IMG/VR virus record: IMGVR_UViG_3300030099_000923
Location: 318 to 28,788 of that record
Direction: 5' to 3' (one strand)
Length of the DNA stretch: 28,471 bases
Source of the DNA: a virus
Shown: positions 125 to 18,736 of the stretch, in pieces
Layout of the letters: each line of letters opens with the position of its first letter
Position numbering within the stretch: position 1 is the first letter of the stretch
The notes under the pieces: model-generated
What the model was told of the DNA's origin: nothing
Seen by the model: only the letters and a program-made list of their open reading frames with translations
The model's database searches: none
Program-made: the position numbers and the translations under genes

Positions 125-1375
125 GTGGGATGGATGCAAATTTTAAAGGCTTCATTAGATATAATCACTAGTGAGTTGCGCCAAGATGTAAAATCTATGG
201 GCGGTAAAATATATCAAATCGGTGGAGCAGTTAGAGATGAGTTTCTAGGTAAAGTGTCAAAGGATTTAGATTTGATAATTACTGGTATAGACATAGAAGA
301 TTTACAAGAATTGTTAAATAAACATGGTAAAGTCAATTTAGTTGGTAAAAGTTTTGGAGTGTTAAAATTTAATCCTACTGGTGAGAAAGGAGAGCCTGTA
401 GATATTGTTGTTCCTAGAATAGAAGTAAGCACTGGGGAGGGTCACAAGGATTTTGAAGTTAAGTTGGGTAAAGATATTACTTTAGAAGAAGAACAATTGC
501 GTAGAGATTTTTGGATGAATGCAATTGCTAAGGATATTGAAACTGGAGAACTAGTAGATATTGAAGGTAGAGGTCAACTTGATATAAAAAACAAACAAAT
601 TTCTGTAATTAATCCAAAAGCGTTTGAAGATGACCCATTAAGGATGTTAAGGGCTGTTCAATTTGCGGCTAGATTTGAGTTTAAAATAGAAGAAGAAACA
701 ATGAAAGAAATAAAGAAAAATGCTCAAAAAATTAAAACTGTTTCTAATGAACGATTCCAAGAAGAATTTCGAAAAATGTTCGAAAAATCCCTGAAGCCCA
801 CCATAGGAGTTAAACTTTTAGTCGAGACTGGATTGATGAAACATATACTTAGTAATGGAAAAGTTAATCCTTTAATGGATAAATTGGATAAAAATGCTTT
901 TCCAGCGTTTTTGGCGTTATTTGGCGAAGATTCAAGTAGTGAGAAGTTACAAGATTTAATGAAATTATCTAATAAAGATGCTAAAATAGTTAAAGCAGTT
1001 ATGGATTTTCAAAAACTAGATGTAAATGACCTTAATATTGTTAGATTTTTATCTAAAATGACTGATAAAAATGATATTATTCGTAATATTGATGCGTTAC
1101 AGAAAGCCAAAAATCAAAAAACTCTAAGTGAACAACTAAAATCAATGAAAAGTGAAGGAAAACCGACAAATTTGAAAGAATTGGCTATCTCTGGGCAAGA
1201 CCTTTTAGATAAGGGACTGAGTGGAAGAAAAGTTGGAGAAATTTTAGACTTTTTATTAGAATTAGCAGTTAAAACTGGTAAAAATAACAAAAGTTTCTTA
1301 CTTGAACGTGCTAAGTCTAAGTTTAGTGGAGAATTATGGAAAAGTATATTAAAGAAACAATATAATATTAAATGA
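125..1375 (+). CDS. class II CCA-adding / poly(A) polymerase-type nucleotidyltransferase, tagged at both ends
   Basis: This 416-aa protein belongs to the Pol-beta superfamily, class II (bacterial/eukaryotic type), whose members add CCA or A tails to RNA 3' ends. Visible motifs are GGAVRD at residues 33-38, the metal-binding D47-x-D49, RRDFWMNA at 126-133, the nucleotide-selecting EDDPLRMLRA near 168-177, and ERFQEEF near 209. The frame is open further upstream to a GTG at 89. I chose GTG 125 because GGTGAT lies at 116-121 and because the protein then begins MGWMQILKAS, matching the tag shared by many genes here. The C-terminus, ELWKSILKK, resembles the same tag. Class II enzymes are atypical of archaea, so viral or bacterial ancestry is likely. 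Activity on tRNA is inferred; poly(A) or another RNA substrate is possible. Confidence 0.85.
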   Translation: MGWMQILKASLDIITSELRQDVKSMGGKIYQIGGAVRDEFLGKVSKDLDLIITGIDIEDLQELLNKHGKVNLVGKSFGVLKFNPTGEKGEPVDIVVPRIEVSTGEGHKDFEVKLGKDITLEEEQLRRDFWMNAIAKDIETGELVDIEGRGQLDIKNKQISVINPKAFEDDPLRMLRAVQFAARFEFKIEEETMKEIKKNAQKIKTVSNERFQEEFRKMFEKSLKPTIGVKLLVETGLMKHILSNGKVNPLMDKLDKNAFPAFLALFGEDSSSEKLQDLMKLSNKDAKIVKAVMDFQKLDVNDLNIVRFLSKMTDKNDIIRNIDALQKAKNQKTLSEQLKSMKSEGKPTNLKELAISGQDLLDKGLSGRKVGEILDFLLELAVKTGKNNKSFLLERAKSKFSGELWKSILKKQYNIK

Positions 1376-1407
1376 GATATAGTTACGGTTGGACATTGGG
1401 TGGTATT

Positions 1408-1866
1408 ATGACATGGACAGGGTTACTTAAAAACAACAAAGACTCTATCTATAAAAGAAAAACTCAATACTCTGGAACATGTCCTAAATGTAAAGAATTT
1501 ATTGCTACTTTAACTGGTTTTTGTCCATTAAAATTACCAGCAAAGGGAGAAACTTCAGCGGCCCCTTATTGTCCGATGTTAAATAAGGCTATTATAGAAA
1601 CAGAATTTGTTAGAGATTATCCACAATACGTTACTGAAATGAAAGAGGAAATGAAATTTAGAAATATGGACCAGCCCGAGGCAGAACTTAAAGTTGCTAA
1701 GAAATACCGTCTACCTATTTTGTCTAAGTTACGGGGTAAAAGTGGCGGAGGCCGTTGGACTAGAATGTTAAAACTTGCAGGTGCGGTTACTAGTACAACC
1801 GCTGGAATTGAAAGTAAACCCATATACGGAAAAAAGAAAAAGAAAAAGGAGGAAGATGAAGAATGA
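1408..1866 (+). CDS. tagged basic zinc-binding protein
   Basis: This 152-aa protein begins MTWTGLLKNN, the shared N-terminal tag. The in-frame ATG at 1372 overlaps the previous stop, but the ATG at 1408 is preceded by GGGTGGTATT and gives the tag at the exact N-terminus, so I prefer it. Residues about 25-58 contain CPKC, a second Cys and a CP pair that together could bind one zinc. The middle is helical and charged, with a glycine/arginine stretch (GKSGGGRW). The tail is a run of lysines followed by acidic residues. No family was recognised. Zinc and lysine content suggest nucleic-acid binding, which is an inference. The gene overlaps the next one by four bases (ATGA). Confidence 0.75.
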   Translation: MTWTGLLKNNKDSIYKRKTQYSGTCPKCKEFIATLTGFCPLKLPAKGETSAAPYCPMLNKAIIETEFVRDYPQYVTEMKEEMKFRNMDQPEAELKVAKKYRLPILSKLRGKSGGGRWTRMLKLAGAVTSTTAGIESKPIYGKKKKKKEEDEE

Positions 1867-3155
1867 GTTGGACAAGTCAACTATGGAAAAGAGAGCCAAT
1901 TTTAAAGGCTAAAAAGAAATCATTAAAGAAAAAACAATTAGTTAGGTTTAAAGGACCAGATGGGGTAATTTCTTTTATAGACCAAGATGTAGGGGAAATA
2001 CATTCTAAATTAAAAGCGGATTTTGCTAAATGGACTGACACCTGTAAAGGATTAAGCAATGAGGATATCGGAGTTGTCGGTTCTGCGGCAATTGGGAGCA
2101 AAGGCACACCTAAAGGTAAAAAATATTTTGATACTTTATATGAGCATTTGGACAACCATGTAACTTCCGCCGCTTCTCGTAAAGGACAAGCAAAGCGTTT
2201 ATTTAAAGAACAATTAGCCGATTTCGAAAGAATATTGGGAGGGGAAGATGGGTTAATTACAGAAGAAGATGCAGAAGATATGAAAGAATTTACAGCAACA
2301 ATAAAAGGATTTGCTGGTGGAAAAGATGACCCTAAAAATATTCCTTTTACAGTTCCCGCTTCTATATCAGCGAAAGAAGGCGGTGGCTTTGAGGTTGACG
2401 AAATGACTGTTGTTCATGGTCATTATAGAACACCTAAATATGTTGAAATGAGAACTAAGGTTAAAGAAGCAGGTGATGAAATGCCCGCTGTTCCCTCTTC
2501 TTGGTATGGTGCAGAAAATGGTAATCAAACCCCACCAATGCATCAAGCCATGTTTGCTAATTCAAGTGTATCTAAAAAAGGAACATTAATCACAACTGGT
2601 TTATTAGGCTTATTAGAAAAATTCGATAAACAAATAGAAGGTGCTGAAATAGATGAAGTAATTATTGATTTTGCTACAAGTGGTGGTGGAATTAATATGG
2701 ATAAAAAAGCGCAACAATTAGCAGACTGGAAACTGTTCGCTAATTATGTAAGAAGAATAATGAAATCTACTGGAACTTATGGAACTGGTAATGCTTCTAA
2801 TAAAGTTATTTACAGTGGAGGCCCAAGTAGAATATTAGATAATATAAATGGTAAAGTGTTTAATGTTAATAGATTAAGTTCTAAATTTATAACCGCTATC
2901 GGTGGTTTTCAAGATATAGTAGGTCATGAAAATATTAAAAAGTTTAGAATTAAAATTACACGTCCTTTATTATTTAGAGTTATCAATAAAGTTATGAGAG
3001 AAAGAGGCGATTTCGAAGCCCCCGATGGTAGATTATTTTATACTCCTGATGACGGTGGTGTAAAAGGAGTACTAAGAAATTGGAGTAATAAAATTCCAGA
3101 GAAATTAAAACCGAAACCAGTTAAGAAAAGTTGGGCCGCTAGTTTATGGAGTTGA
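1863..3155 (+). CDS. unknown 430-aa protein with W-tags at both ends
   Basis: The protein starts MSWTSQLWKREP and ends KKSWAASLWS, so the same S-W-x-x-x-L-W pattern stands at both termini. The start ATG overlaps the upstream stop and has GGAGG at 1848-1852. Residues about 15-30 are very lysine-rich. The central part has mixed alpha/beta character with glycine-rich turns, including DFATSGGGINM and GGFEVDEMTVVHGHYR. No catalytic signature or membrane segment was recognised. Its tags place it with the putative internal virion proteins, but its actual role is unknown. A viral structural or DNA-processing protein would fit the context. Confidence 0.75.
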   Translation: MSWTSQLWKREPILKAKKKSLKKKQLVRFKGPDGVISFIDQDVGEIHSKLKADFAKWTDTCKGLSNEDIGVVGSAAIGSKGTPKGKKYFDTLYEHLDNHVTSAASRKGQAKRLFKEQLADFERILGGEDGLITEEDAEDMKEFTATIKGFAGGKDDPKNIPFTVPASISAKEGGGFEVDEMTVVHGHYRTPKYVEMRTKVKEAGDEMPAVPSSWYGAENGNQTPPMHQAMFANSSVSKKGTLITTGLLGLLEKFDKQIEGAEIDEVIIDFATSGGGINMDKKAQQLADWKLFANYVRRIMKSTGTYGTGNASNKVIYSGGPSRILDNINGKVFNVNRLSSKFITAIGGFQDIVGHENIKKFRIKITRPLLFRVINKVMRERGDFEAPDGRLFYTPDDGGVKGVLRNWSNKIPEKLKPKPVKKSWAASLWS

Positions 3156-3159
3156 TTCA

Positions 3160-3822
3160 ATGGCTAAAACAAGAAAACGCTGTAGGCTCTGTCAACACCC
3201 TGATAGAGAGCAATTAGAAGAAAGGTTAACTTCTTTACAAATTACTCCCGATGAACTGGATGCTGAAATGCAATGGCCTAGTGGTGTTTCTTCAAGACAT
3301 TTAAGAAATCACATGGATACAGAATATACCGACCAATCCAATCCTAGATGTGCATTATGTGTTAGTCCTGATAGACAAACATTAGAGTTAGCCATTCATG
3401 AAGGAGAAATATCTCCTACAACTGTTGCGGCAGATTTAGGAGTTACTCGCCAGCAAGTAATGAAACATATGAATAAGCATTTGAAGCCTATTGTACAAAA
3501 ATCTGCGGCAATGGAAATAGCAAAAAGAGAACTAAATGAAGTAGATATGCTTGCTGATAATATTCATAGATTAGAAGATAAAATAGAAATGTTGTTTGAT
3601 GAAGACGACTTAAATCCAAAATACATTGACAGTCTAACCAAACTCGCTAAAGAAATACGTGAGTCATTAAAATACATGTTGGAGTTTAAAGGCCAACTTG
3701 TTCATAAAAGACAGGACACCATTATTGTCGCACAAATGCAGGTAGTCCAAGAAGTATTAGCACAGCAACACCCCCAAGTTTGGTTAGACATCAAATCTAA
3801 ATTACAGGAGCAATTACAATGA
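3160..3822 (+). CDS. tandem CCHH zinc/HTH DNA-binding protein, candidate terminase small subunit
   Basis: This 220-aa protein contains two copies of a zinc/helix-turn-helix unit. The first has C8, C11, H47 and H51; the second has C64, C67, H103 and H107. Spacing inside the units is identical (C-x2-C-x35-H-x3-H) and the period is 56 residues. The histidines lie on what should be the recognition helix (SSRHLRNHM, TRQQVMKHMNKH). Residues about 120-220 are a long charged helix, likely for oligomerisation. It lacks the W-tag. Small terminase subunits typically combine HTH DNA binding with helical oligomerisation, so TerS is a sensible candidate, but no direct TerS signature is present and TerL is 7.6 kb away. 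A transcription regulator is the alternative. Confidence 0.7.
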   Translation: MAKTRKRCRLCQHPDREQLEERLTSLQITPDELDAEMQWPSGVSSRHLRNHMDTEYTDQSNPRCALCVSPDRQTLELAIHEGEISPTTVAADLGVTRQQVMKHMNKHLKPIVQKSAAMEIAKRELNEVDMLADNIHRLEDKIEMLFDEDDLNPKYIDSLTKLAKEIRESLKYMLEFKGQLVHKRQDTIIVAQMQVVQEVLAQQHPQVWLDIKSKLQEQLQ

Positions 3823-6104
3823 GTTGGTCTTTGCTTCTTCTTAAACAAGTTCCTAAAAACTGGACTACTCAGTTACCAGCGGATGACCCTATACAATGGG
3901 CGCAACTTATTAGATTCCATAGTCTCACTCAAGATAAAGAAGGAAATAAAAATATACCTTTAGATAATGATGCATTCATTAACGATATAAAAAGTGGGTC
4001 ATATCCACAAAAGGGTATTAGAGGAACTATTAAACAACTAGAAGAATGGAAAGAAAATCCTAATGCTTGGAATAGAACTGTAATTGGTAGTTTGGCTTCA
4101 GGGCGTAATCCAGTTACTAGACCAAAACATCTACGTGCTATTATTGATAGATTTGTTAAAGAGGTTTTGCCTATACTAAAAAAGAATATAGGAGATATAG
4201 ATTCTAAAAGAACTAAAGGTACTCAATTTAAACGCAAAACAGATTGGAATAACACTGAGTCTGCTATTAAGGCTTTAACAGGTATAACTGAATTATCTAA
4301 AGGGGAACAATTAAAACTTTTAGAGGAATTCAATTCTAATATTAGAGATAAAACTAAAGTAAATGATAAACTGCAAAGTTTCGGATTAAAACTTAAACCC
4401 AATATTAGGACTATTCTTTCTAATGTAGGTTTATTAGATAAAAGAAAAATAATCATATCTAATCAAGGAATGCCTCTTGAACAATGGAATAGTGTAAGAT
4501 TAGATTCAATAGATGGTATTACTTTTAAAAAGGAAAAAGCAGAAATTATTTCTAGTCCTATCGACAAAGATAAATTTGCAAATTTAAAAGAAAAAATTAT
4601 GGAGAAACTTAAAACTAGAAACCTAAAAATTTCGACTAAACCGTTACCAGTTGTTAGGGTTTTTGGTGTTGGTAAATTAATTACAGCGCAAACAGAAGAA
4701 GATTATAAAACAACGCCAAAGAAAGAGGGAACTAGATTATCTCAAGCAGAACTATTACAGCAACAAGAGAAAGAATTTGAAAAATATAAGGTAAACCCGA
4801 ATTTCACTTTTGACCATGCTCAATACTATTATGGATATATAGTTCGTAAAGGTGCTAAGTTTGTACCAGAGCGATTAAAGGGTTCTCAATTAATAACTGG
4901 AACATCGGGAACAAAAAGTCCTAAAGGGGCTAATCCTATTGTGTTGCAATTATTAGATGATGAGTATTCTGATACTTCTACTCTGTATTCTGATTTTATG
5001 ACGAATACCACACAACAACTCTATAAAAATAGAAATGCTGTTATGAATTACTATATTGAGAGAATAATAGAATCGGGTGGAAAAGATTTTAAAAGTTTGT
5101 TTGGGAAAGATGTTGGTAGACTTTCAGATATAGAATTGAGCGAATTTCAGTCAAAAAATGATAAAGAAAAAAGATTATATCTAAAACAACAGTTTACTAA
5201 TCCTGATTCTTCTCTTTATCCTTTTTTAAATAAAATGGTAGATGATGATAGAAAAGTAACTCCTTATCTTTCTTTATCTCTTTCAGATGTAGAATTAAAA
5301 TTTGTTGAGAAATTAAAGGACTATGATAAGACAATAGAAAAAATAGAGGAAGAAACTACAGATGAGGGTGGAGTAGAGGATTTTCAAATATTAAGACCTC
5401 TTTTTGTTAATCCTGTTAAAGAAACATCTGGAATAAAACATTTTACTACTAAAGGTAATCGAGATAGGTTAGATGAATTTATTGCTAATATTAAAGTCTT
5501 AGACACTATACAACAAGTAAGAGATAGATTTGGTGACACTTATGCTAGAATGATAAATTCACTTAGGAAGAAAGCAAAACCAAAAGTTACAATAACGCCA
5601 CAAATACAATCAGTTATGAAAGAAAGAACCGAAGGATTAAATCCAAAAGAAAGAGATGTTGCACTTGTTGTGTTTTCAGCGCTTGATAATAAAAAGGATT
5701 TTAAAGATGTTTTAAGGTTTCAATCTTCAAGTGCAAGTGCGCCATCATTTGGTGAGTTATTCGCAATTTTAACTAAATTAGGTAGAGCGTTTACCACTCA
5801 ATTAGGTGTTAACAATTATACTGAATTCATAGACGATTTGAAGTATGACGAAGAAAACCCAAAATCCGATGCCGAAGTAAAAAGTATAGTGAAGGATTTA
5901 GTAGCGGCTGTAGAACAAGATATACCTAAAGTTAGAAATTTTTTGAAAGAAGAAGCGGAAAAGAAAGTAAAAGAGATACTCGAAAACCCCGCTAAACATT
6001 TAGATAAAGAAACTAGACGAAAAGCCCTTGCTGGTAAAACTAAAGGTAAAACTAGTATTATAAATTTATTAGTGAGACAAAAAATAATAGTGGAGGATAA
6101 ATAA
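3819..6104 (+). CDS. large tagged protein of unknown function (761 aa)
   Basis: The gene begins at an ATG overlapping the previous stop, with AGGAG about 8 nt upstream, and encodes MSWSLLLLKQ, the shared tag, followed shortly by a second W-containing segment (NWTTQL). The rest is a soluble, charged, largely helical protein with no signal peptide or membrane segment and no motif I recognise. The last 60 residues are highly charged and helical. The size, the tag and the position between a TerS-like gene and a second giant protein suggest an internal virion or ejection protein. That is inference only. Confidence 0.7.
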   Translation: MSWSLLLLKQVPKNWTTQLPADDPIQWAQLIRFHSLTQDKEGNKNIPLDNDAFINDIKSGSYPQKGIRGTIKQLEEWKENPNAWNRTVIGSLASGRNPVTRPKHLRAIIDRFVKEVLPILKKNIGDIDSKRTKGTQFKRKTDWNNTESAIKALTGITELSKGEQLKLLEEFNSNIRDKTKVNDKLQSFGLKLKPNIRTILSNVGLLDKRKIIISNQGMPLEQWNSVRLDSIDGITFKKEKAEIISSPIDKDKFANLKEKIMEKLKTRNLKISTKPLPVVRVFGVGKLITAQTEEDYKTTPKKEGTRLSQAELLQQQEKEFEKYKVNPNFTFDHAQYYYGYIVRKGAKFVPERLKGSQLITGTSGTKSPKGANPIVLQLLDDEYSDTSTLYSDFMTNTTQQLYKNRNAVMNYYIERIIESGGKDFKSLFGKDVGRLSDIELSEFQSKNDKEKRLYLKQQFTNPDSSLYPFLNKMVDDDRKVTPYLSLSLSDVELKFVEKLKDYDKTIEKIEEETTDEGGVEDFQILRPLFVNPVKETSGIKHFTTKGNRDRLDEFIANIKVLDTIQQVRDRFGDTYARMINSLRKKAKPKVTITPQIQSVMKERTEGLNPKERDVALVVFSALDNKKDFKDVLRFQSSSASAPSFGELFAILTKLGRAFTTQLGVNNYTEFIDDLKYDEENPKSDAEVKSIVKDLVAAVEQDIPKVRNFLKEEAEKKVKEILENPAKHLDKETRRKALAGKTKGKTSIINLLVRQKIIVEDK

Positions 6105-8795: not shown

Positions 8796-9005
8796 ATGGA
8801 CTGGGAAGAAGTATTAAAGAAAAAGAAAAAGAAAAAATCTACTGTTAATCAGGCTGGTAATTATACCAAACCTACTATGCGTAAAAGAATTTTTAATCGT
8901 ATAAAGGCAGGTAGTAAAGGTGGCCCTGCTGGTAAATGGTCAGCACGAAAAGCACAAATGTTGGCTCAAGCCTACAAGAAAGCGGGTGGCGGCTATCGTG
9001 ATTAA
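8796..9005 (+). CDS. small basic DUF5872-like protein with N-terminal tag
   Basis: This 69-aa protein starts at ATG 8796, three bases after GGTGAT (8787-8792), giving MDWEEVLK followed by a run of lysines. An in-frame ATG at 8751 lies inside the previous gene and is not used in this call. The C-terminal 40 residues (IKAGSKGGPAGKWSARKAQ, then AQAYKKAGGGY) resemble the DUF5872-type domain found as a short module in phages and giant viruses; this is from memory of the pattern. The function of that domain is not established. The very high lysine content suggests DNA binding. The gene overlaps the next one. Confidence 0.75.
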   Translation: MDWEEVLKKKKKKKSTVNQAGNYTKPTMRKRIFNRIKAGSKGGPAGKWSARKAQMLAQAYKKAGGGYRD

Positions 9006-9270
9006 ATGGCAAGAAGTCTTAAAAGCCAAAACAAAAAGGCAACAAGACTTATCCACTTGGACCGATGAAGAGTGGGGTAGCCAAGAACAACATAGAGCAA
9101 AAGCCAAAGGAAAAAAAGTACCTTCTAAAACAAAAGGAAGATATATGCCAAAAGCAACATATCAAAAAACTCCTAAAAAGACTTTAGATTATCAAGATAG
9201 AAAGAAAAGAAAAGGAAGAAAACAAGGTAAACAACATATACCAACAGGAAAGAAGTTTAGCCAAAAGTGA
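8998..9270 (+). CDS. small basic tagged protein
   Basis: This is a 90-aa lysine/arginine-rich protein with little predicted fold. I place the start at GTG 8998, which overlaps the stop of the preceding gene, because it yields MIKWQEVLKAK, the shared tag with one extra residue before W, and follows a GGGTGG stretch. The frame is open farther upstream to 8920, but that part lies antiparallel in sense to nothing recognisable and is out of frame over a good gene. The C-terminus is almost entirely basic (DRKKRKGRKQGKQ). Nucleic-acid condensation inside the virion is an inference from charge and tag. Confidence 0.65.
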   Translation: MIKWQEVLKAKTKRQQDLSTWTDEEWGSQEQHRAKAKGKKVPSKTKGRYMPKATYQKTPKKTLDYQDRKKRKGRKQGKQHIPTGKKFSQK

Positions 9271-9275: not shown

Positions 9276-9731
9276 ATGCCTATAACTAAAAGAAAGAATG
9301 GATACTATTGGGGTTCTAAGGGTCCATTCAAAACTAAGAAAAAGGCACAACAAGTTGCTCAAGCGGCCTATGCTAGTGGTTATGTAAAGAAAAGTTGGCA
9401 AGATATTTTAAAAAAGGAACCAAGAAAAGGTACGGGTAAAAAACCGCAGGGTTCTACTAGAAGGTTATACACTGATGAGAATCCAAAAGATACTGTACCT
9501 GTAAAATTTAGAACAGCACAGGATGTTAGAGAAACATTTTCCAGTTCTGCATTTAAAAATAAACCACATAAAAGGCAGTCACAAATTATTAACTTAGTGG
9601 AACAAAGAGCGAGAGTTGCCGCTAGAAGGGCTAAAGACCCTGAAGCGAAAAAGAGATTAAATGCGGCTCATAAGGTTGCTTTATCCCGAAAGGAATCTAG
9701 CAAGAGAAAAACACAGAGGATGAAAGCATGA
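9276..9731 (+). CDS. two small phage modules joined by an internal W-tag
   Basis: The 151-aa protein starts at ATG 9276 behind AGTGATTATT. Residues 1-35 (KNGYYWGSKGPFKTKKKA, then AAYASGY) look like a short module often found as a small phage protein. Residues about 38-45 are KSWQDILKKE, an almost perfect copy of the tag that is N-terminal in neighbouring genes. The second half begins YTDENPKDTVPVKF and carries EQRARVAARRAK, resembling another small phage-associated family that I know only as a pattern. One reading is a fusion in which a tagged gene lost its own start and was appended to the small module. The protein is strongly basic. Function is unknown. Confidence 0.7.
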   Translation: MPITKRKNGYYWGSKGPFKTKKKAQQVAQAAYASGYVKKSWQDILKKEPRKGTGKKPQGSTRRLYTDENPKDTVPVKFRTAQDVRETFSSSAFKNKPHKRQSQIINLVEQRARVAARRAKDPEAKKRLNAAHKVALSRKESSKRKTQRMKA

Positions 9732-10234
9732 ATTGGGAAGATATACTAATAAAACGAGAACTAAAAGATGGAGAAACTACCATTACTCATGATGAATGTA
9801 AAGACATGGAAAAAAAGATTTTAGCAGAAGTTAAAAAAGAAGGAGGGGCTTTAGGTATGAAAAATTTAAAGGGAATAGGTTCCCCCAAAAAGTTAAAGAT
9901 GGTTCTTGAAGATATGAAAAAGAGGGGAACTATTCATGAACATTCTAATGGAGATTTTTATACTCATGAACCAAAATTATCTAAGAAAAGTATTGATTTG
10001 ATATTACCTAGAGGTAAACAAAAAGTGTTGAAAGCAGAGGATAAAGATTATGATAGAGGATTACTTGTTAAATTATTAAAAAATGGAGGCTATGATATGG
10101 CATATTGGGCAGGTAAACATGAGCCTTATCCAGTTGAAGTATTAGTCGATGGAGTATCTATTAAAAAAGATGCTAAGAAGGTAACAATGAAATTCCATCC
10201 TGAAATGGAAAAAAAGAGAGGTGATAAAAAATGA
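9728..10234 (+). CDS. tagged winged-helix protein
   Basis: This 168-aa protein begins MNWEDILIKR (tag) at an ATG overlapping the previous stop, with GAGGATGA upstream. Residues about 28-75 form a probable winged helix: an AEVKKEGGALGMKNL helix, a second helix with SPKKLKMVLEDMKKRG, and a wing with NGDFYTH. The same arrangement occurs in the next gene (KKEGGAAGL... GD), so the two appear to be paralogues. The C-terminal part is basic and unrecognised. DNA binding is likely. Whether it regulates transcription or rides with the genome in the capsid is not shown by the sequence. Confidence 0.7.
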   Translation: MNWEDILIKRELKDGETTITHDECKDMEKKILAEVKKEGGALGMKNLKGIGSPKKLKMVLEDMKKRGTIHEHSNGDFYTHEPKLSKKSIDLILPRGKQKVLKAEDKDYDRGLLVKLLKNGGYDMAYWAGKHEPYPVEVLVDGVSIKKDAKKVTMKFHPEMEKKRGDKK

Positions 10235-10569
10235 CATGGGAAGATGTATTGAAAATGCATTGTGGAACACATAAAGTAGATGATGATGATGAAGAGGAAA
10301 AGAAAGCATTGGTCGGCAACCAAAAAAGAATAGATGCTGATGGTGATGGTAAAATAACTGGAGAAGACTTTAGACAACTAAGAGAGAAAAAGGCTGACCC
10401 AAAACCAATTATTATTAGAACTTTAAAGAAAGAAGGTGGGGCCGCTGGACTAGATGTTTTATGCAAAGCCACTGGATTATCTAAAAAAGAATGTAAAGCG
10501 GTGCTTAATTCAATGGATAATGTGAAAACACATAAAGACGGAGATATCATTTTAATGGACGGATTGTGA
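10231..10569 (+). CDS. tagged EF-hand plus winged-helix protein
   Basis: This 112-aa protein starts four bases inside the previous gene, with GGTGAT at 10220-10225, and begins MTWEDVLK (tag). After an acidic segment comes a textbook calcium loop at residues 35-46 (DADGDGKITGED), with Asp at positions 1, 3 and 5, Gly at 6, Ile at 8 and Asp instead of the usual Glu at 12. Residues about 60-105 resemble the winged helix of the upstream gene, including KKEGGAAGL and a final GD turn. It could be a calcium-responsive DNA-binding protein. Calcium binding is a good prediction from the loop; its purpose is unknown. Only one EF-hand is visible, so pairing would need dimerisation. Confidence 0.75.
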   Translation: MTWEDVLKMHCGTHKVDDDDEEEKKALVGNQKRIDADGDGKITGEDFRQLREKKADPKPIIIRTLKKEGGAAGLDVLCKATGLSKKECKAVLNSMDNVKTHKDGDIILMDGL

Positions 10570-10573
10570 TATT

Positions 10574-10861
10574 GTGAATTGGTTCGACTTACTTAAAAAA
10601 GATAAAAAGGATATGAGAGTGGGTCGAGTTTATCCTAGTGATAGAGAAGGTAAAAAAATAATGATGTTAACACATGAAGGTAAAAAGATTCACGCTGGTG
10701 CAAAGGGCTATGGTAATTATAAGCGTAAAGGTAAAAATCGTGGCGGTGGAACTCATAGAAGTAGTAAGCGCAGAGCCAACTTTAGGGCAAGGCATAACTG
10801 CGACCAATGTAAAGGTAAAATCACAACTCCTAAATGTTTAGCATGTAAGAAGTTGTGGTGA
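10574..10861 (+). CDS. tagged basic zinc-ribbon protein
   Basis: This 95-aa protein starts at GTG 10574 after TGTGATATT and begins MNWFDLLKKD (tag). The middle (KKIHAGAKGYGNYKRKGKN, then FRARHNCDQC) resembles a family of small phage proteins with a GA.GY...H...R..F.ARH pattern; this is a tentative recollection. The C-terminus is a compact zinc ribbon, C-x2-C-x8-C-x2-C, ending CKKLW. It is strongly basic. Nucleic-acid binding inside the particle is the simplest inference. Confidence 0.7.
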   Translation: MNWFDLLKKDKKDMRVGRVYPSDREGKKIMMLTHEGKKIHAGAKGYGNYKRKGKNRGGGTHRSSKRRANFRARHNCDQCKGKITTPKCLACKKLW

Positions 10862-10866
10862 TTTAC

Positions 10867-11418
10867 TTGGATTGGTTTGATACTTTAAAGTTCCATGATA
10901 GATTAAAAGAACTTTTAGGCAATCAAGAAGAAGTCATTATTGATTTAGGACCAAGCGAAAGTAAAGTCCAAGAAATGTGGAACGCCAGCAATCCTGATAA
11001 CCCTTATATTATGCGTAATGTTAAAAACGAAGGTACTTCTAAATACCCCGTTGAAAATTGGTATGGTGTAATTATTAATGAAAATGGTAAAGCACGATTA
11101 GTTGCTATAAGTGGTTTCGCCGTTAGACAAGGTAAAGACGGAAAGCAGTTTGCATATAAAGGGGGAACCCGAACTGTGATTGCTGGTAAAGGATATGGAA
11201 GTAAAGCAAGAACAAAAGCCATACAAAATAAACCCGATGTTCCCACTATTGCAGGTTATACAGCCGCAGGTAGTAAGTTGTTTAACCCTAGACCTAGATT
11301 TAATCCCGATAGACATAATGTAATTCCCGATGAAGTCATTCAACATTTCAAGGATAATTATGAAGGGGGAGGAAAAAGTTGGTCTATTTCTAAATGGATG
11401 AAAATGTTGCGTGATTAA
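10867..11418 (+). CDS. GNAT-like protein with tag-like sequences at both ends
   Basis: This 183-aa protein starts at TTG 10867, four bases after GGTGAT (10857-10862), giving MDWFDTLKFH (tag). The body has a beta-rich arrangement followed by GKGYGSKARTKAI, which resembles the acetyl-CoA pyrophosphate loop (motif A, R/Q-x-x-G-x-G/A) of GNAT acetyltransferases, then a segment VPTIAGYTAAGSKLF typical of the C-terminal half of that fold. The last residues (SWSISKWMKMLRD) again look like the tag. The GNAT assignment is moderate. The substrate is unknown, but modification of a virion or host protein is possible. Confidence 0.6.
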   Translation: MDWFDTLKFHDRLKELLGNQEEVIIDLGPSESKVQEMWNASNPDNPYIMRNVKNEGTSKYPVENWYGVIINENGKARLVAISGFAVRQGKDGKQFAYKGGTRTVIAGKGYGSKARTKAIQNKPDVPTIAGYTAAGSKLFNPRPRFNPDRHNVIPDEVIQHFKDNYEGGGKSWSISKWMKMLRD

Positions 11419-11419
11419 T

Positions 11420-12871
11420 ATGGAAATAAAAGACTTAGACTTTAGTAGAAATATGGATTTAGAGTTATCTAAAAATTCCTTTCCTTATTTTTTTACAGAA
11501 GTATTAGGCTTTGAATTTACCTCTTTTCATCAAGAGTGGTTAGACTTAATGAATAAAACTGATAGAACGGTTATTATTTGTAGTCGTGACCATGGAAAAT
11601 CTGTATTCATGCATTCATGGGCAGTATGGCAGTTATGTTTTCAACCTGCTCCTTATCAAATGTTATACATTTCTTCTAATCATAAGCAAACTATGGTCCA
11701 CATGAGAGATATAGATAAACTGTTTAACAACCCTACTATTGCTCATTTTCGGCCATCAAGAGGATGGGCTGTAGGGAACATTACTCTTACTAATGGTAAT
11801 TCAATTTTAGAACGTTCAGTAGGCTCTCAAATTAGAGGGCTTCACCCACAAGAAATAATTATTGATGACCCTCTAAAAGAGTTTAGTCTCACCGCTATTA
11901 AAAAAGTTACAGATTGGTTTTTTGGTGATATGATTCCCACACTTCATCATACTGCTAGTCTCAGAATGATTGGAACGCCTTTTACTTATACAGATATTTT
12001 TAGTTTATTAGCCAGTGAAGAATATTCAGAAGTTTATACTGTTAGGAACTATCCTTGTTTAAATCAAAACAATGAACCACTATGGCCTTCTCGTTGGGAT
12101 TATGATTCTTTAATGCAAAGAAAAAAAGAAGTGGGTTCATTGAAATTCACAAGAGAATATCTTTGTATTCCTATATCTACTGGGACTGCCTTATTTGCTC
12201 AAGAACATATAGATGCATGCAAAGAAGCGGGAAAAAAGGATATTCTACGGTTAAGACATAGAAAGGATTCGGGGTATAATTACTATGTAGGGGTTGACCC
12301 TGCTATTTCTACTGATGGTGATTATAATGTTATTATGGTTTTAGAAGTAGACGAACAAAGAAATAAAAGAATTATTTATGTTGATAGACAAAAGAATGTA
12401 GAGTTTAGAGATAATATAAATAAAATAAAAATGGTTGCTCAATTATTTGAACCTGATGTAATTTATTTTGAAACAAATACATTTGCTAAATCCTTTACTC
12501 AAGAGTTGCGTAATGAAACTGATTTAAACATTAGAGATGTTACTATGACTCGTAGGAAGAAAGAAGAAATCATTCTTAATTTACAAATGAATATAGAAAA
12601 CGCTAAGATTGTATTCCCTAGAGGAAATGATGAATCGAGAAAGGTGACTGATAACATTATAGAAGAATTATCTATGTTTAGTATTACTGACAGTGGAAAG
12701 TTTGAAGGGGTGGGTGCGCACGATGACTTAGTTATGGGACTCGCTCTTGCTAATTCTGCCACACATGATATGTTAGAATCAATTATATTATTAGACGACA
12801 TGGCAATATTTGATAATGAGCAACCACAGGCCACTGTTATAGGAGGGGGAGCGTTTGGACTTAATTTCTAA
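11420..12871 (+). CDS. terL: terminase large subunit
   Basis: This 483-aa protein is the DNA-packaging motor, with ATPase and nuclease activities. Walker A is CSRDHGKS at residues 54-61, Walker B is IIIDDP with the catalytic Glu shortly after (LKE) near 144-153, and the coupling motif is IGTP. The RNase H-like nuclease is shown by GVDPAIS near 291, YFETN near 349 and HDDLVMG near 433. Length is normal for TerL. I start at ATG 11420 behind CGTGAT; an in-frame GTG at 11411 is less likely. It lacks the shared W-tag. Its 3' end contains the ribosome binding site of the next, overlapping gene. Confidence 0.97.
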   Translation: MEIKDLDFSRNMDLELSKNSFPYFFTEVLGFEFTSFHQEWLDLMNKTDRTVIICSRDHGKSVFMHSWAVWQLCFQPAPYQMLYISSNHKQTMVHMRDIDKLFNNPTIAHFRPSRGWAVGNITLTNGNSILERSVGSQIRGLHPQEIIIDDPLKEFSLTAIKKVTDWFFGDMIPTLHHTASLRMIGTPFTYTDIFSLLASEEYSEVYTVRNYPCLNQNNEPLWPSRWDYDSLMQRKKEVGSLKFTREYLCIPISTGTALFAQEHIDACKEAGKKDILRLRHRKDSGYNYYVGVDPAISTDGDYNVIMVLEVDEQRNKRIIYVDRQKNVEFRDNINKIKMVAQLFEPDVIYFETNTFAKSFTQELRNETDLNIRDVTMTRRKKEEIILNLQMNIENAKIVFPRGNDESRKVTDNIIEELSMFSITDSGKFEGVGAHDDLVMGLALANSATHDMLESIILLDDMAIFDNEQPQATVIGGGAFGLNF

Positions 12872-14210
12872 AAGTGAAGAAGGGGATAAACTTCGAGAAG
12901 AGGCACAGCGGGTTAATGAATTGGCAGAATTAAAGGATAGAGAACAAGAGATAAAAGACCAATTAGAAACGGTTGATAAATGGGTTTCAACTTTACCTCT
13001 TATGAGTGATTATGAAGTAGCAATGAGTGTTTCTAAAAAATATAATATGAATATTACAGAAGCAAAATCTCAATTAGATTCTTTTCCAAAACAATATACA
13101 ATCGAAAACAAATCAATTCCTGAAGTTGTTAAAGATTTAAAAAAGTATAGACGAAAATTAAAAGGAGATAATAAATTAGAATTCACTAAGGGAATAGAAA
13201 ATTTAATTGTCGCTTATTCTAATCATCTATCGGATTGTATAAAATCTATTTATTGGTTAGCACCATATGAAACTCCCCTTAGACAAATGAGATATACAGA
13301 AAATGATTTAAAGAAAATACACTCTATTAAAGATGAAGTAACTAGAAGAGATATTATAGAGTGTTTGTGTAAATTTTGGGAGGCAGAATTACATAGAGGT
13401 AACAATTATAATTCTAATTATTCTTCTTTAACTAAAACAATGACTAATTCTAAAAGAGAGTTTAGAAAAATAGTAACTAATATTCCTAATCAAGTTATCA
13501 AAACAAATATTTCTAAACAACTAGATGATTTTGTTTTAAAATCAGTATGTAATGAACAAGGAATATCCGCTAGACAAATATATGATAGATTACCAACTAA
13601 ATTACATAGAAGGGCTTCTCCACAAATTATCTGTAAAATAGCAGATAAAATGAATATCACTAATATAGATGGGGAATATTATAAATTACCTATGGAAATT
13701 AAAAAAGACCTTTATGCTTATACTGCGGCCTTTATAGATTCAGATGGTTACATAACTATGGATAGAAATTATAATCCTAGAATTGGAATTATTGCTACGG
13801 GTAATAGGGGTAAAGCATTCGTAACTGAATTACATAAAGAACTAGGGTTTGGAAAATTACATTTAGACCAAAAATCTCCACAAGCAACTAGGGCTGTTCA
13901 AAGGTTAAACTTTTATTCTCAAGATGATATTACTAAGTTGATTTCAAAAACTAGGCCACACTATAGAATGAAAGGAGATAATGCTGATATTCTTACAGAG
14001 TTGATTCGTATAAAGAAAAACCATAAAAAACAATCTTGGGCTAAAGAAAGAATGCAAGAATTATTTAAGTTGATGAAATGGGCCAACCACGCAGACCATG
14101 TTAATTATGACTTTTCAAAGGATGGTATAGATGTGGAGAATATTGCTAAATATAAAGAGAATAATAAAATGAGTGTTATGGATAGATTAGAAACAGGAGT
14201 AGTGGTATGA
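12855..14210 (+). CDS. winged-helix plus LAGLIDADG-type nuclease-like protein
   Basis: This 451-aa protein starts at TTG 12855 behind AGGAGGGGG and overlaps terL by 17 bases. Residues 1-45 are a charged coiled coil, and the middle is helical. Residues about 222-278 look like a winged helix (ISARQIYDRLPTKL, then ADKMNITNIDGEYY). Residues about 285-385 are a single LAGLIDADG-type domain, with the core YTAAFIDSDGYITM and a following beta strand RIGIIATG. A single motif implies a homodimer. It is not inside an intron or intein here and sits between TerL and portal, so it may be a free-standing homing endonuclease or a packaging-associated nuclease. Confidence 0.75.
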   Translation: MDLISKSEEGDKLREEAQRVNELAELKDREQEIKDQLETVDKWVSTLPLMSDYEVAMSVSKKYNMNITEAKSQLDSFPKQYTIENKSIPEVVKDLKKYRRKLKGDNKLEFTKGIENLIVAYSNHLSDCIKSIYWLAPYETPLRQMRYTENDLKKIHSIKDEVTRRDIIECLCKFWEAELHRGNNYNSNYSSLTKTMTNSKREFRKIVTNIPNQVIKTNISKQLDDFVLKSVCNEQGISARQIYDRLPTKLHRRASPQIICKIADKMNITNIDGEYYKLPMEIKKDLYAYTAAFIDSDGYITMDRNYNPRIGIIATGNRGKAFVTELHKELGFGKLHLDQKSPQATRAVQRLNFYSQDDITKLISKTRPHYRMKGDNADILTELIRIKKNHKKQSWAKERMQELFKLMKWANHADHVNYDFSKDGIDVENIAKYKENNKMSVMDRLETGVVV

Positions 14211-15856
14211 TGCCTGAAGAAAAAAGAAGATTTTCTATTGTTAATTTCTTTCGGAAATCAACTCCCGTCCCTGCTGATAGAGAAGTATATCAAATGGGAA
14301 TACAAGAAAGACATCATCCTTTAATGATGACTGGCCCTATAGTCTATCATGTTGCGGATAGTTCAGTTATTCTTAGGACTTGTATAACTCAATTAAAAAA
14401 TGAAATATTTAGACGAGGATATGAGTGGGCTCCTAAGTTTGCTGTTAAGTGTAAAAATTGTGGTAAAGAGCATGAAGAACCCGTAAAACAATGTGCAGAA
14501 TGTAATTCTACTAATCTCATTAAACCTAATAAAGACCAAAAGAAATACGCTGATAGTTTTATGAACCATTCTTATGTTAATGAATCAGAACAAATGTTCA
14601 TTGATGTTCTAAAAGAATTAGAAGACGATTTGAATATAATGGATGATGCTTATTTAGTATTAGTCAAAGAGTATTTTATTGATGGTAATGGTAACATTAG
14701 AGCGCATAAAATTAAACAAGTATATCGAGCAGACCCAGTAACTATGGCTATTGTTTGTGATGATGAAGGAAATAAGGGAGGTGACACATATACTTGTATT
14801 CACCATAGAGAAATCACTACTAGTGACCCTCATGAAAAATGTTCTGAATGTGGTGGAGATACTTATCCAGTTCATTACACTAACAGAGCGCATGGCTATC
14901 AGCAAAATTTCATAAAGGGAGAAGTACTTCATTTTAGTAAGTATTCCCCAAGTAGATTATATGGAACTAGTCCTGTAATAACTTTATGGAATCACTTAAC
15001 AACTTTAATCGCTATGGAGAATTATATTAATCAAGCATATACAAAAGCAAGAATGCCAAAAGGATTATTGGCAGTTCAAACTAGAAATATAGAATCAATG
15101 AAAACTTTCTGGAGGGGGGTAAAGGAAAAGATGGAGCAAGATGCCCACTTTATTCCTGTTATGGGAATAGAAGCAGAGAATGGTAGGGGTTCTGTAGAGT
15201 GGGTTAAGTTCATGGATAGTTTAAAAGAAATGGATTACATTTCGGTTAAAGAAGATTTAAGAGATAGGGTTGCCGCTTTCTACGGTGTAAGTAAAATCTT
15301 TATGGCGGATAACTCTGCTAGTGGCGGATTAAACAATGAAGGTATGCAAATACTTGTAACTAATCGTGCAGTAGAAATGGCTCAAAATGTTTGGAATAAA
15401 TATGTATTTCCGTTTATAGTTGAACAATTTGGTATAACTGATTGGAAGTTAATTTTACCTCCTTCAGAAGAAGAAGATGAAATAGCAGTTATGCGTAAAA
15501 GAGAAATCGAAGTCAATATTGCTGGTCAAATTAAAAATTTAGGATTTGAAGTTGATATGGATGAAAATGGCAAGTTTATTTTTAGTAAACCAGAACCACA
15601 AAAACAGGAGGGCGGAGAAGAGGAAGAAGATAAACCGATTGAATCTGACCCTTATGCTGGAACTGATATTGACCAATCACAACTAGGACAAATGATGGAA
15701 GCGGGAACTAGACCTACAATGGCTGAGGCGGGAAAGCCCGCTGAAGTAAAGTCTAAACCTAAGATGAGCGTAGGGCCACCTAATCGTAGTAAAGGTTTAC
15801 CAAAAGAGGCCGCTAATAATAATGTAGATAGAAGAACTGAAAGAGGTGGAATATAA
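14207..15856 (+). CDS. portal protein with zinc-binding insertions
   Basis: This 549-aa protein is the dodecameric channel at the capsid vertex. Support comes from its position after terL and from the portal-like core, including LHFSKYSPSRLYGTSPV, a helical LTTLIAMENYINQAY stretch, and the typical DLRDRVAAFYGVSKIFMAD followed by NNEGMQILVTNRAVE. Two Cys clusters are inserted in the N-terminal half: C82-x2-C85...C96-x2-C99, and C197-x2-H200...C212-x2-C215. The C-terminus from about 465 is a low-complexity Glu/Pro/Lys-rich tail. Starts at 14207 and 14210 (ATGATG) are both possible. It has no W-tag. Confidence 0.92.
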   Translation: MMPEEKRRFSIVNFFRKSTPVPADREVYQMGIQERHHPLMMTGPIVYHVADSSVILRTCITQLKNEIFRRGYEWAPKFAVKCKNCGKEHEEPVKQCAECNSTNLIKPNKDQKKYADSFMNHSYVNESEQMFIDVLKELEDDLNIMDDAYLVLVKEYFIDGNGNIRAHKIKQVYRADPVTMAIVCDDEGNKGGDTYTCIHHREITTSDPHEKCSECGGDTYPVHYTNRAHGYQQNFIKGEVLHFSKYSPSRLYGTSPVITLWNHLTTLIAMENYINQAYTKARMPKGLLAVQTRNIESMKTFWRGVKEKMEQDAHFIPVMGIEAENGRGSVEWVKFMDSLKEMDYISVKEDLRDRVAAFYGVSKIFMADNSASGGLNNEGMQILVTNRAVEMAQNVWNKYVFPFIVEQFGITDWKLILPPSEEEDEIAVMRKREIEVNIAGQIKNLGFEVDMDENGKFIFSKPEPQKQEGGEEEEDKPIESDPYAGTDIDQSQLGQMMEAGTRPTMAEAGKPAEVKSKPKMSVGPPNRSKGLPKEAANNNVDRRTERGGI

Positions 15857-16068
15857 TGAGTTGGATTTCAGTTTTAAAATTAGGAGAGATGGGTTCTAGG
15901 AAAACATTCGATGATTATGATAAAGCAAGAAGATTAGCATTTCAGTGGTCTTTTGCGGTTCCTCATGTTATTAGGGAAAAGGAAGGAAAGTTTACAGTTA
16001 TGATGAAAAGAGATACTTTTAGGGCTACTGATTATGGCCCTGTTATTTGGGAACAACCAGTGAGATGA
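15856..16068 (+). CDS. small tagged protein (70 aa)
   Basis: It begins MSWISVLKLGEM (tag) at an ATG sharing one base with the portal stop codon, with GAGGTGG upstream. The remainder is a small mixed alpha/beta domain (FDDYDKARRLAFQWSFAVP, then KEGKFTVMMKRDTFRA). It may be a compact decorator or cargo protein, and no family was recognised. Immediate coupling to portal suggests the product is made during head assembly. Confidence 0.7.
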   Translation: MSWISVLKLGEMGSRKTFDDYDKARRLAFQWSFAVPHVIREKEGKFTVMMKRDTFRATDYGPVIWEQPVR

Positions 16069-16072
16069 TAAT

Positions 16073-16294
16073 ATGACAACAAGAGAAGAAGCGACAAAAA
16101 TGAGAAAAGAATTAGTTAGGGCTGAGAGAATTTTAGCACAACAAGAAAAAATTAAAGCACCTAAACCAAATTATATGCCAATGCAATTAAAGAAAGAAAA
16201 GGATAGACCTGAACCTAAAACTAATAGCGTACCTAATGTAATTCATTTACCTAAAAGAAAAAAACAAAAGAAAGAAAATATACCATTTTTTTAA
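16073..16294 (+). CDS. small basic protein (73 aa)
   Basis: It starts at ATG 16073 behind TGATAAT, four bases after the previous stop. The first 30 residues form a charged helix; the rest is proline/lysine-rich and probably disordered, ending KKENIPFF. No tag and no known family. The very basic composition fits DNA or scaffold contact, but function is unknown. Confidence 0.6.
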   Translation: MTTREEATKMRKELVRAERILAQQEKIKAPKPNYMPMQLKKEKDRPEPKTNSVPNVIHLPKRKKQKKENIPFF

Positions 16295-16303
16295 GTGATT
16301 TAA

Positions 16304-17815
16304 ATGACAACATTGTTAAAGGCTCATCTTCGTAAAACGAATAATCCTTTAGATATGTTTGAAATTTTATTACATGAGTATTATCCTACTATCCTCAAAG
16401 CCACTGGTAAAACCTTTGTAGATGCTATATTAGATTCTGGAGATTCAGAAGTTTTTAGTAAAGAAACATTAACGGCTTTTAAAAAATTAGCAGGTGCTAG
16501 TAAAAGAACTAAAGTAGGAAGATGGATGAATAAAGATAATCCTCCTTTTTTATTAGAGACCGTTAGAGAGAATGACGGTTATGAAGAAGAATCAAGAGAA
16601 CAAAATCTTATTAACTTTAGAAATTTATTAGAGAAAGAGACTAAGTGGGATGCTTCTAAATATGGAGATTTAAAAAAAATAATTGCTGGTTTAAATCAAT
16701 TAATATCTATAGAAGATAAAAGACTACAAGGAAAAACGCCAAGGAGCGTTGGTATGTTTGAAGCGGAGCGTTCCGCATCTAAAGAAAAAGTAGTAGAGGT
16801 TGATAAAGAATTAGATAAAGACTTAAAAGATTTACAAAAGTTAAGTGGCTTATTAACAAAAGTAGATTTGTTGGATTTTGAAGGTAAATTAGTTTATGAA
16901 TCTGAAGTAGAAGACCCGTTATTAGAGTTGATTCCAAACAACAAAGCAATAGAAAAATTGGAAGAGGCCGCTAAACCTAGTTATTATTTTAAACCTTTAA
17001 ATGTTAAAGAGGCTAATCGTAGCCAAAATAGTTCCTTAAATAAATTAATTAGAGATGATTTTGAAAAGGAAATTAAAAGTGAATTCGAAAAACTAAAAAG
17101 AGAAAAATTCGGATTAGAAAGATTATCACAAAAAACGAAGCCATTTGAAGAATACAGGGAAGAAAGAAGTAAAGATTTTAAATCATTTAAAAAGAATTGG
17201 TTAGATTCCAACTATGAACAAGTAGGCGTAAATACTGAGAATAAACTTTATACAGATGATTCTGAGGTTAAATTGTTTTCTAAAAATAATATGAAAGTAA
17301 ACGATTTAAAAGAAGAAATACATAACACATTAACTGCTAAAAAGAAATATCCAAGATTAGATGGCTCAAGACCCAGTGTAACTTTATTAGATGCTTTGTT
17401 ATATGCTATTGAGCAAAAAAGGGGAGTTGTTTTGGAACGCTCAAAAGAAAATAGAAAAAAGTTTTTGAACGATTATAGGGCTTTAGTAAGAGAACTACAA
17501 GAAGGAGAATTGATGGCCTTATTACAATTACAAAGGATACCTGTAAGAGTAACACTAGCAAATAATAATTTAGACTGGGAAGAAGAAAAAACAAATATTA
17601 AAAATTATTTAAATCAAGAATTTGATAATGTTAGATATCTTAAAGCGGCGGAAAGATTAGATGGAATATTACCTACTGGTATTTTTGATTTTACAGAACC
17701 ATTAGAAGGATTCGATGATAATGAATTTCTTGATAATTTTAGGAATACCTTTGGTAATAAAGTTATAGTTTCTACGGATAGAACGGAATTAGAAGGACAA
17801 ATGGAGAATGATTAA
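16304..17815 (+). CDS. unknown helical protein (503 aa)
   Basis: It starts at ATG 16304 behind AGTGATTTAA and begins MTTLLKAHLRK, without the W of the shared tag. The protein is soluble, highly charged and mostly helical, with likely coiled coil around residues 140-190 and 240-290. No catalytic or metal-binding motif was recognised. It is followed directly by a tagged small protein. In composition it resembles the two large unknown proteins at 3819-8791 (charged, Lys/Glu-rich, no motifs), but I could not align them by eye. Confidence 0.65.
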   Translation: MTTLLKAHLRKTNNPLDMFEILLHEYYPTILKATGKTFVDAILDSGDSEVFSKETLTAFKKLAGASKRTKVGRWMNKDNPPFLLETVRENDGYEEESREQNLINFRNLLEKETKWDASKYGDLKKIIAGLNQLISIEDKRLQGKTPRSVGMFEAERSASKEKVVEVDKELDKDLKDLQKLSGLLTKVDLLDFEGKLVYESEVEDPLLELIPNNKAIEKLEEAAKPSYYFKPLNVKEANRSQNSSLNKLIRDDFEKEIKSEFEKLKREKFGLERLSQKTKPFEEYREERSKDFKSFKKNWLDSNYEQVGVNTENKLYTDDSEVKLFSKNNMKVNDLKEEIHNTLTAKKKYPRLDGSRPSVTLLDALLYAIEQKRGVVLERSKENRKKFLNDYRALVRELQEGELMALLQLQRIPVRVTLANNNLDWEEEKTNIKNYLNQEFDNVRYLKAAERLDGILPTGIFDFTEPLEGFDDNEFLDNFRNTFGNKVIVSTDRTELEGQMEND

Positions 17816-18154
17816 ATGACATGGGAAGATATATTAAAAGAAGAAAATAAAATTCTTAACGCTTTAGATTCTAAAATGAAAAAGAGGTTAAAGAAAACGC
17901 TTCAAGCGGCAGAACCTACAGAGTATTTCGGCCAAGACTTTACACAGTTAGGCGATTTAATTGGTATGTTAGAAGAACTTGATTTGATTAAAGATGATAA
18001 TAAGATGAAAAAGCGAATGAAATCTATTAATGAGCAAAACGTTGATATGGTCGCTACTGCGAGCAAACTCCGTAAGCAGTATGAACAACTGTATCGACAG
18101 GTGAGAAAAATAGTATATCCAAAGAGTGCTGGTAGTTTAAGGGATGATGAGTAA
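17816..18154 (+). CDS. small tagged helical protein (112 aa)
   Basis: It begins MTWEDILKEE, one of the cleanest copies of the tag, at an ATG directly after the previous TAA and behind TGATTAA. The remainder is helical, with a basic MKKRLKKTL segment and a final coiled coil ending in an acidic tail. No family recognised. It shares one base with the next gene, whose product carries the related peptide at its C-terminus. Confidence 0.7.
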   Translation: MTWEDILKEENKILNALDSKMKKRLKKTLQAAEPTEYFGQDFTQLGDLIGMLEELDLIKDDNKMKKRMKSINEQNVDMVATASKLRKQYEQLYRQVRKIVYPKSAGSLRDDE

Positions 18155-18390
18155 TGACAGAAGAAAATAATGAAATGATGGACTTACTAAAAGAATTAGT
18201 AAGTAGAATAAAAGAGATTGAAAAGACAGTTTACAATAATGATAATCTTTTGATGAAATCAGGAATGGTTACAACTAACACACCAGTTCCAGCAATGAAA
18301 ACACATTCAGATGTTCCAGATTCAGATACAATTGCTAAGATGAGTTGGGATGATATAAACAATTTAGTAGACAGATTAGGTGGTAATTAA
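18154..18390 (+). CDS. 78-aa protein with a scaffold-like C-terminal tail
   Basis: Residues 1-27 form a probable coiled coil (EMMDLLKELVSRIKEIEKT); a flexible Thr/Pro/Met segment follows. The last 19 residues start IAKMSWDDINNLV and closely match the C-terminus of the protease-scaffold protein about 4.7 kb downstream. Codons of the two tails differ at most synonymous positions, so the peptide rather than the DNA is conserved. It may be a mini-scaffold, a capsid-binding adaptor, or a competitor for the scaffold site. The start ATG overlaps the previous stop by one base. Confidence 0.75.
   Translation: MTEENNEMMDLLKELVSRIKEIEKTVYNNDNLLMKSGMVTTNTPVPAMKTHSDVPDSDTIAKMSWDDINNLVDRLGGN
18331..18387 (+). 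other. C-terminal scaffold-like tail (peptide repeat, copy 1)
   Basis: Encodes IAKMSWDDINNLVDRLGGN. It aligns residue for residue with copy 2 at 23024-23083, sharing IAKM-x-W-x-DIN-x-LV-x-RL and then G. The M-S-W-D-D-I core is also the consensus of the N-terminal tags of many genes in this window. Confidence 0.85.
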
Positions 18391-18391
18391 A

Positions 18392-18736
18392 ATGAGTTGG
18401 AAAGAAGTTTTGAAAGCACCTATGCCAATGTCGGTTATAGAAGAAAGAGATACGGGGGCCAAACAAAAAATTATTGATTTTGAAAAGAATAAGATAGAAC
18501 CTGCCTTTACAGAATATACTCGTAATTTACCACCACAATCACCTGTGAATTTGGAGGTTCTCCTTAGTAGTCGCACTGGTATGAGAGGTAATATTTTTGA
18601 AATCAATGAAGCGACTATTAAAGAATTAGGTGGTAATCAAAAACTTGTTTTTAATACAATAGCAGAAATATATGAGAAAGAAGGATATAAAGTTAATAAT
18701 CGACCTGATTATGGTAAAATAGTAATTACACGATAG
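18392..18736 (+). CDS. small tagged protein (114 aa)
   Basis: It starts at ATG 18392, right after the previous TAA and behind GGTGGTAATTAAA, and begins MSWKEVLKAP (tag). An in-frame GTG at 18380 would add four residues and lies inside the previous gene, so it is disfavoured. Residues about 28-110 look like a compact alpha/beta domain (FTEYTRNLPPQSPVNLEVLL, then GNQKLVFNTIAEIYEKEG and DYGKIVIT). It may be a winged helix, but the family is not recognised. Confidence 0.7.
   Translation: MSWKEVLKAPMPMSVIEERDTGAKQKIIDFEKNKIEPAFTEYTRNLPPQSPVNLEVLLSSRTGMRGNIFEINEATIKELGGNQKLVFNTIAEIYEKEGYKVNNRPDYGKIVITR

Follow-up and report, generated by a model that had tools for sequence, protein, structure and literature searches.

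A short tryptophan-containing peptide on unrelated proteins of a magrovirus-like virus as a candidate capsid-loading signal

Head genes and tagged proteins in the window

The window analyzed here (28,471 nucleotides, bases 318-28788 of the 28.8 kb IMG/VR virus record IMGVR_UViG_3300030099_000923) encodes TerL, a portal protein, a prohead protease (S78) that has a long extension at its C-terminus, a major capsid protein (MCP) of the SU10 type and an ATP-dependent DNA ligase. The protease (21464-23086, 540 aa) matches Pfam Peptidase_S78 over residues 26-173 (E 1.3e-10) and the MCP matches SU10_MCP (E 1.4e-8). The ligase gene (18951-21431) lies within the head operon, with small head-module genes on one side and the protease on the other, and none of the 69 homologues in its cluster carries the peptide described below. 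A 451-aa gene product (12855-14210), flanked by TerL and portal, falls in a cluster of 62 and has no Pfam match, and a conserved Ras/Arf-like small GTPase (26197-26874; weak Pfam matches) is encoded downstream of the MCP, near small probable membrane proteins.

Viral contigs are rich in relatives of this TerL, and the longest of them reach 84-99 kb. Among named phages, the MCP is nearest to that of the haloviruses HCTV-1, HVTV-1 and HCTV-5, the first two of which are classified in Druskaviridae. Magroviruses are tailed viruses of marine Poseidoniales with genomes near 90-110 kb and an ATP-dependent ligase (PMC12999244), and they have been reported among the most abundant viruses of the surface ocean (PMC10160649). 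Tailed-virus head genes together with an ATP-dependent DNA ligase, the size of the long relatives and an MCP most like that of the Druskaviridae haloviruses are all traits that the window virus has in common with the magroviruses (order Magrovirales); judged by its genes, it is magrovirus-like and agrees with the account of magroviruses in marine Poseidoniales. We infer an archaeal host for the record.

A sequence-only reading of this DNA had listed thirteen genes whose products begin with a shared N-terminal “tag,” and each was found where that reading had placed it; all features given here lie on the plus strand. VGWMQILK (125-148) opens a CCA tRNA nucleotidyltransferase (125-1375), MTWTGLLK (1408-1431) a zinc-ribbon-like protein with a weak Pfam hit, MTWEDVLK (10231-10254) an EF-hand-like protein and VNWFDLLK (10574-10597) a DUF5754-like protein, while MDWEEVLK (8796-8819), VIKWQEVLK (8998-9024; a homologue begins MNWRNILK), MSWISVLK (15856-15879) and MSWKEVLK (18392-18415) stand on further products. 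MTWEDILK (17816-17839) marks the most widely conserved tagged family, a cluster of 77 members. The remaining four of the thirteen are variants: MSWTSQLWK (1863-1889) and MSWSLLLLK (3819-3845, on a 761-aa protein) hold one extra residue each, in MNWEDILI (9728-9751) K8 is replaced by I, and in LDWFDTLK (10867-10890) the hydrophobic residue at position 6 is replaced by T. Four of the thirteen genes have non-ATG starts, GTG at 125, 8998 and 10574 and TTG at 10867.

Several further copies were absent from the sequence-only reading. SWQDILK (9393-9413) is internal, at residues 43-49 of the product of the 9267-9731 gene, behind a small N-terminal domain. Three tagged proteins also carry C-terminal copies: LWKSILK (1334-1354) on the CCA enzyme, SWAASLWS (3129-3152) on the 430-aa product of the 1863 gene and KWMKMLR (11392-11412) on the product of the 10867 gene. 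A related MSW/MDW-x-D-I motif, likewise missed, is common to the C-termini of the protease/scaffold protein (MDWSDI, 23033-23050) and of a small head-module protein encoded by ORF 18154-18390 (MSWDDI, 18340-18357).

Conservation, portability and carriers of the tag

The core motif W-x-x-[ILV]-[LIVM]-[KR], starting within the first 8 residues, was searched in the 1729 proteins of 80 TerL-related virus loci and the window, with the expectation taken from shuffles. It was found at the N-terminus of 385 proteins against 1.5 expected, a conservation in related viruses far beyond chance. In protein interiors the core motif occurs at 6e-5 per residue, and the tag in 0.12% of interior 14-mers versus ~19% of head-strand N-termini. 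The tag has the consensus M-S-W-[EKFQ]-[DNE]-[IV]-L-K, most typically MSWEDILK. At position 2, S, N and T predominate, all of them typical helix caps. Relaxing the pattern to W-x-x-[ILV] leaves K at position 8 in 91% of the 874 N-termini that match, and K8 is therefore no artefact of the search pattern. The exact 24-base tag pattern was present in 115 stretches of viral contigs; of the 113 new loci that it yielded, 78 have 30% or more of their genes in common with this virus group, and tag arrays are also present in most of the others. In 257 Gb of cellular genomes the same pattern gave 19 matches, mostly in spurious frames and near chance. One contig of 184,733 bases (L196) with 3 exact tag patterns is clearly above the 90-110 kb described for magroviruses.

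The sequence-only reading had treated the tag as strictly N-terminal, which it is not. In the 1863 family six columns are invariant across 23 homologues, among them the tryptophan of the C-terminal tag (W424), and the N-terminal tag is variable; members of the 10867 family have the N copy only, the C copy only or both. All three CCA enzymes (3/3) are tagged at both ends, the homologues in loci L024 and L021 starting MSWMDILK and MWFNILK and the latter ending in MSWEDLLWR. Some relatives of the 9267 gene product, where the tag is internal, begin at the tag itself, and its homologue gp40 of Pelagibacter phage HTVC033P begins right behind the tag position, without a tag. The 10574 homologues of Flavobacterium phage elemoE and phage ctfjg026 likewise lack it, so none of the homologues checked outside the virus group (elemoE, ctfjg026 and HTVC033P gp40) was tagged. 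The tag is selected at the protein level and is portable between termini.

The 813 non-identical tagged proteins from all loci form 353 single-linkage BLAST families (and 257 protein clusters have at least one tagged member). The tagged proteins are thus unrelated to one another, as had been proposed, and common descent of the tagged “clients” is rejected at the BLAST level. That a single short peptide recurs on unrelated proteins of the same virus is a feature of the capsid-targeting sequence (CTS) system of T4 as well. Most tagged families are of unknown function, and a Pfam match was obtained for only a few of 120 family representatives; these include the CCA tRNA nucleotidyltransferase, an RNA-repair HAD domain, a PAP2 phosphatase, kinase-like proteins and pentapeptide repeats, with weak matches to SAM-lyase and Ren-like proteins. 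A HAD_SAK search over the source records gave no match anywhere, so the HAD_SAK hit stands without a location.

The TerL, portal, MCP, ligase, GTPase and membrane proteins proved untagged, in line with the sequence-only reading, with 0 tagged members in each cluster (46-71 members), and the protease and tail families of the clustered loci are never tagged either. The idea of “basic cargo,” by contrast, does not hold generally: the median net charge per residue of tagged proteins is -0.018, no different from that of untagged families (p = 0.13). Tagged genes can form dense arrays, as in L198, where 19 of 25 genes are tagged by the strict pattern and several more start MSW or MNW. Some tagged genes are tandem paralogues that remain alike for ~25 residues behind the tag (e.g., NIQISSQRTSSKDYVKPDE or RQKLRSDNQPLPDDDE) and then diverge (L198 2186-7969; L264 424-4969; L197 2789-6437; L227 4502-8267); they look like a diversifying cassette array.

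Ties to head assembly and possible roles

Tagging follows the head genes. Among 160 loci whose orientation was set by TerL or MCP, the tag is present on 399 of the 2114 genes of the same strand and on 0 of 188 on the opposite strand. The tags listed for four genomes or near-whole stretches (88-96 kb) surround the head genes (in G004 they are also found at the start of the tail region), and all but one lie in the head/tail-gene region; the exception, a tag-like start MIDWEDMVK at 66217 of G001, lies in the replication half, on the opposite strand. Hardly any replication-module protein has a tag. The stretches of the related haloviruses HVTV-1 and HCTV-1 that were examined do not have the W tag. 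Several proteins in their head module (L162-L164) start with other recurring pieces (VYVDSPDEAPEGVQVQ..., PEAVEECVDSVLDDNPDYSESRAYAICW...), which could be their own equivalent of the tag.

The window virus encodes a prohead serine protease with a scaffold-like extension, a feature expected of a T4-type CTS system; by analogy with the usual S78 protease-scaffold arrangement, the extension is presumably the scaffold. The C-terminal motif of the protease/scaffold protein is M-[SD]-W-x-[DE]-[IVL]-[HN], present in 58 of 58 homologues when the pattern is relaxed slightly; the 18154 protein has the same motif at its C-terminus in 72 of 75, against a background of 1e-4 per residue. Independently, tblastn linked the protease/scaffold protein and the 18154 protein through the motif stretch in two genomes (63% identity over 24 residues). 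These ends have positions 1-6 in common with the tag and differ at positions 7-8 (H/N-x instead of L-K); the shared positions suggest that scaffold, small head protein and cargo all dock at a single site.

In the 17816 family, W3 is invariant in 58 homologues. Its AlphaFold model is all-helical, with a helix beginning at W3 (the first ten residues are of low confidence), and a fold search with it returned insignificant helical matches only. The 430-aa family of the 1863 gene (1863-3155) was modeled at pLDDT 75 and has three clear relatives among predicted viral structures; no PDB match to its fold was found.

The octapeptide M-[STND]-W-x-[DNE]-[IV]-L-K would be a portable docking peptide through which clients co-assemble with the core or inner face of the prohead as it forms; they would thereby come to lie within the virion and probably be delivered along with the DNA. 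The tag and the terminal peptides of the protease/scaffold and 18154 proteins would share a single binding site, for which the MCP shell or a core protein is the likeliest candidate, and would engage it via a short helix displaying W3 and I6/L7. The clients might be host-takeover or counter-defence cargo; the few that can be named (the CCA enzyme, RNA-repair HAD, kinase-like and pentapeptide-repeat proteins, and the weak SAM-lyase and Ren-like matches) fit early delivery.

The prohead protease may also cut behind K8. Two hydrophobic residues and K, followed by a small residue, are found near the N-terminus of the protease (ILK before Ser, 21521-21529; 58/58 homologues), in the 18154 protein (LMK before Ser, 18250-18258; 75/75) and at the N-terminus of the MCP (LLK before Ser/Ala, 23176-23184; 45/47), and these predicted sites, the one in the protease being a candidate self-cleavage site, lie in places at which a prohead protease could act. 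The tag ends in the same run of two hydrophobic residues and K, and the near-invariance of this run in those three proteins is what makes a cut after K8 possible; with such a cut, the tag would be a “target-then-cut” sequence like the T4 CTS. Residue 9 behind K8 is, however, unrestricted (most commonly N, E, K, A or R), unlike the small residue at the predicted MCP and protease sites, which makes cleavage of the tag doubtful. A plain cleavage site finds no support at position 9, and removal of the tag by the prohead protease is a possibility toward which we do not lean.

A signal in the DNA or in translation initiation, rather than in the protein, might account for some features of codon usage: AGT is the Ser2 codon in 93% of tags (88% without gene overlap), compared with 62% at untagged Ser2 and 25% inside genes, and 37% of tags start in ATGA overlaps. 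These overlaps explain the AGT bias only partly, and a bias this strong indicates that start-codon context also shapes position 2. Yet codons are varied at L7 and background-like at K8, the tag has internal and C-terminal copies, and the same motif stands at the C-termini of two conserved proteins; the C-terminal copies rule out such a signal as the sole cause, and we regard it as an extremely unlikely explanation. It is also quite unlikely that the tag sends proteins elsewhere in the infected cell (to a membrane, a factory or a host partner) with the capsid uninvolved. In favor of such a role, the peptide may form a short amphipathic helix, but tagging goes with the head genes and hardly ever reaches the replication module, and the motif is shared with the protease/scaffold protein.

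The location of tagged genes on the head strand, around the head module, would also suit proteins that dock on the head exterior or neck as decoration. This is very unlikely, given that the core motif ends a protease/scaffold protein of a type that acts inside the prohead and that enzymes such as the CCA enzyme would be improbable decorations. Clients might instead be placed in the scaffolding core only, where they would serve assembly or size control and then be digested or expelled, with no delivery to the host. Proteins of the most widely conserved tagged family (17816) are small and helical, with their gene next to ORF 18154 and close to that of the protease, and in T4 the assembly of the head is likewise affected by an internal protein, IPIII (PMC9026906); nevertheless, hundreds of unrelated, virus-specific clients, among them a CCA enzyme with conserved catalytic-family domains, would make a poor disposable scaffold, and we consider this role unlikely.

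Capsid loading is the best reading because the tags are confined to the head strand, the tag is portable, the clients are unrelated and vary from virus to virus, and the motif is common to the protease/scaffold C-terminus. The capsid-loading code put forward by the sequence-only reading is partly supported on these grounds, but its restriction to N-termini and its basic cargo are not. Against capsid loading speak the tag-like start in the replication half of G001, the unrestricted residue 9 and the lack of the tag in the HVTV-1 and HCTV-1 stretches examined. It is probable, as judged from the gene sequences, that the tag is a docking peptide that loads clients into the prohead by imitating the end of the protease/scaffold protein, like the T4 CTS but presumably unrelated to it in sequence. 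We also slightly favor the broader proposal that it is a general cargo code of marine archaeal viruses, in which the first six residues copy the protease/scaffold end and ~10-25 fast-changing proteins would be loaded per head and injected. Such a code would give hundreds of unknown protein families a testable common role and points to injected proteins, loaded beforehand, as a major component in the workings of these archaeal viruses. New counter-defence and takeover proteins can be sought by means of the tag, which might also be a tool for placing chosen proteins into virus-like particles, and the rise of T4-like cargo loading in unrelated viruses becomes directly testable. The open-access literature searched holds no earlier account of the motif and describes no tag system in magroviruses; most subscription literature, including the founding magrovirus paper, was outside its scope, and priority is not certain.

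Comparison with known cargo-loading systems

Encapsulin cargo-loading peptides are short and put cargo inside an HK97-fold shell; they are usually C-terminal and usually serve one or a few cargo types, and the shell is not viral. The tag resembles them as a short peptide loading cargo into a shell (a role predicted here from the genes), and its sequence is presumably unrelated to theirs. In phage P1, the N-terminal 30 residues of DarB suffice to package a reporter into the capsid; the signal is not reported there to be one short motif that recurs across hundreds of proteins (PMC9024508).

A close parallel is T4, whose internal proteins are diverse and have only the CTS conserved (PMC3012670). 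Of the 10 residues of the CTS, 4 and 7 are those for targeting and 8 and 10 those for processing, and Alt undergoes processing at both of its ends (PMC9026906). As with the CTS of IPI-III and the propeptides of Alt, we find a short N-terminal peptide on otherwise diverse proteins in a virus that has a prohead serine protease. The T4 CTS sequence is, we assume, unrelated to the MSWEDILK consensus, and we claim no membership by descent. T4 has a handful of clients, whereas here there are hundreds of families, with up to ~20 tagged genes in a row, in an archaeal-type virus in which C-terminal copies are frequent and the core motif is common with the C-terminus of the protease/scaffold protein.
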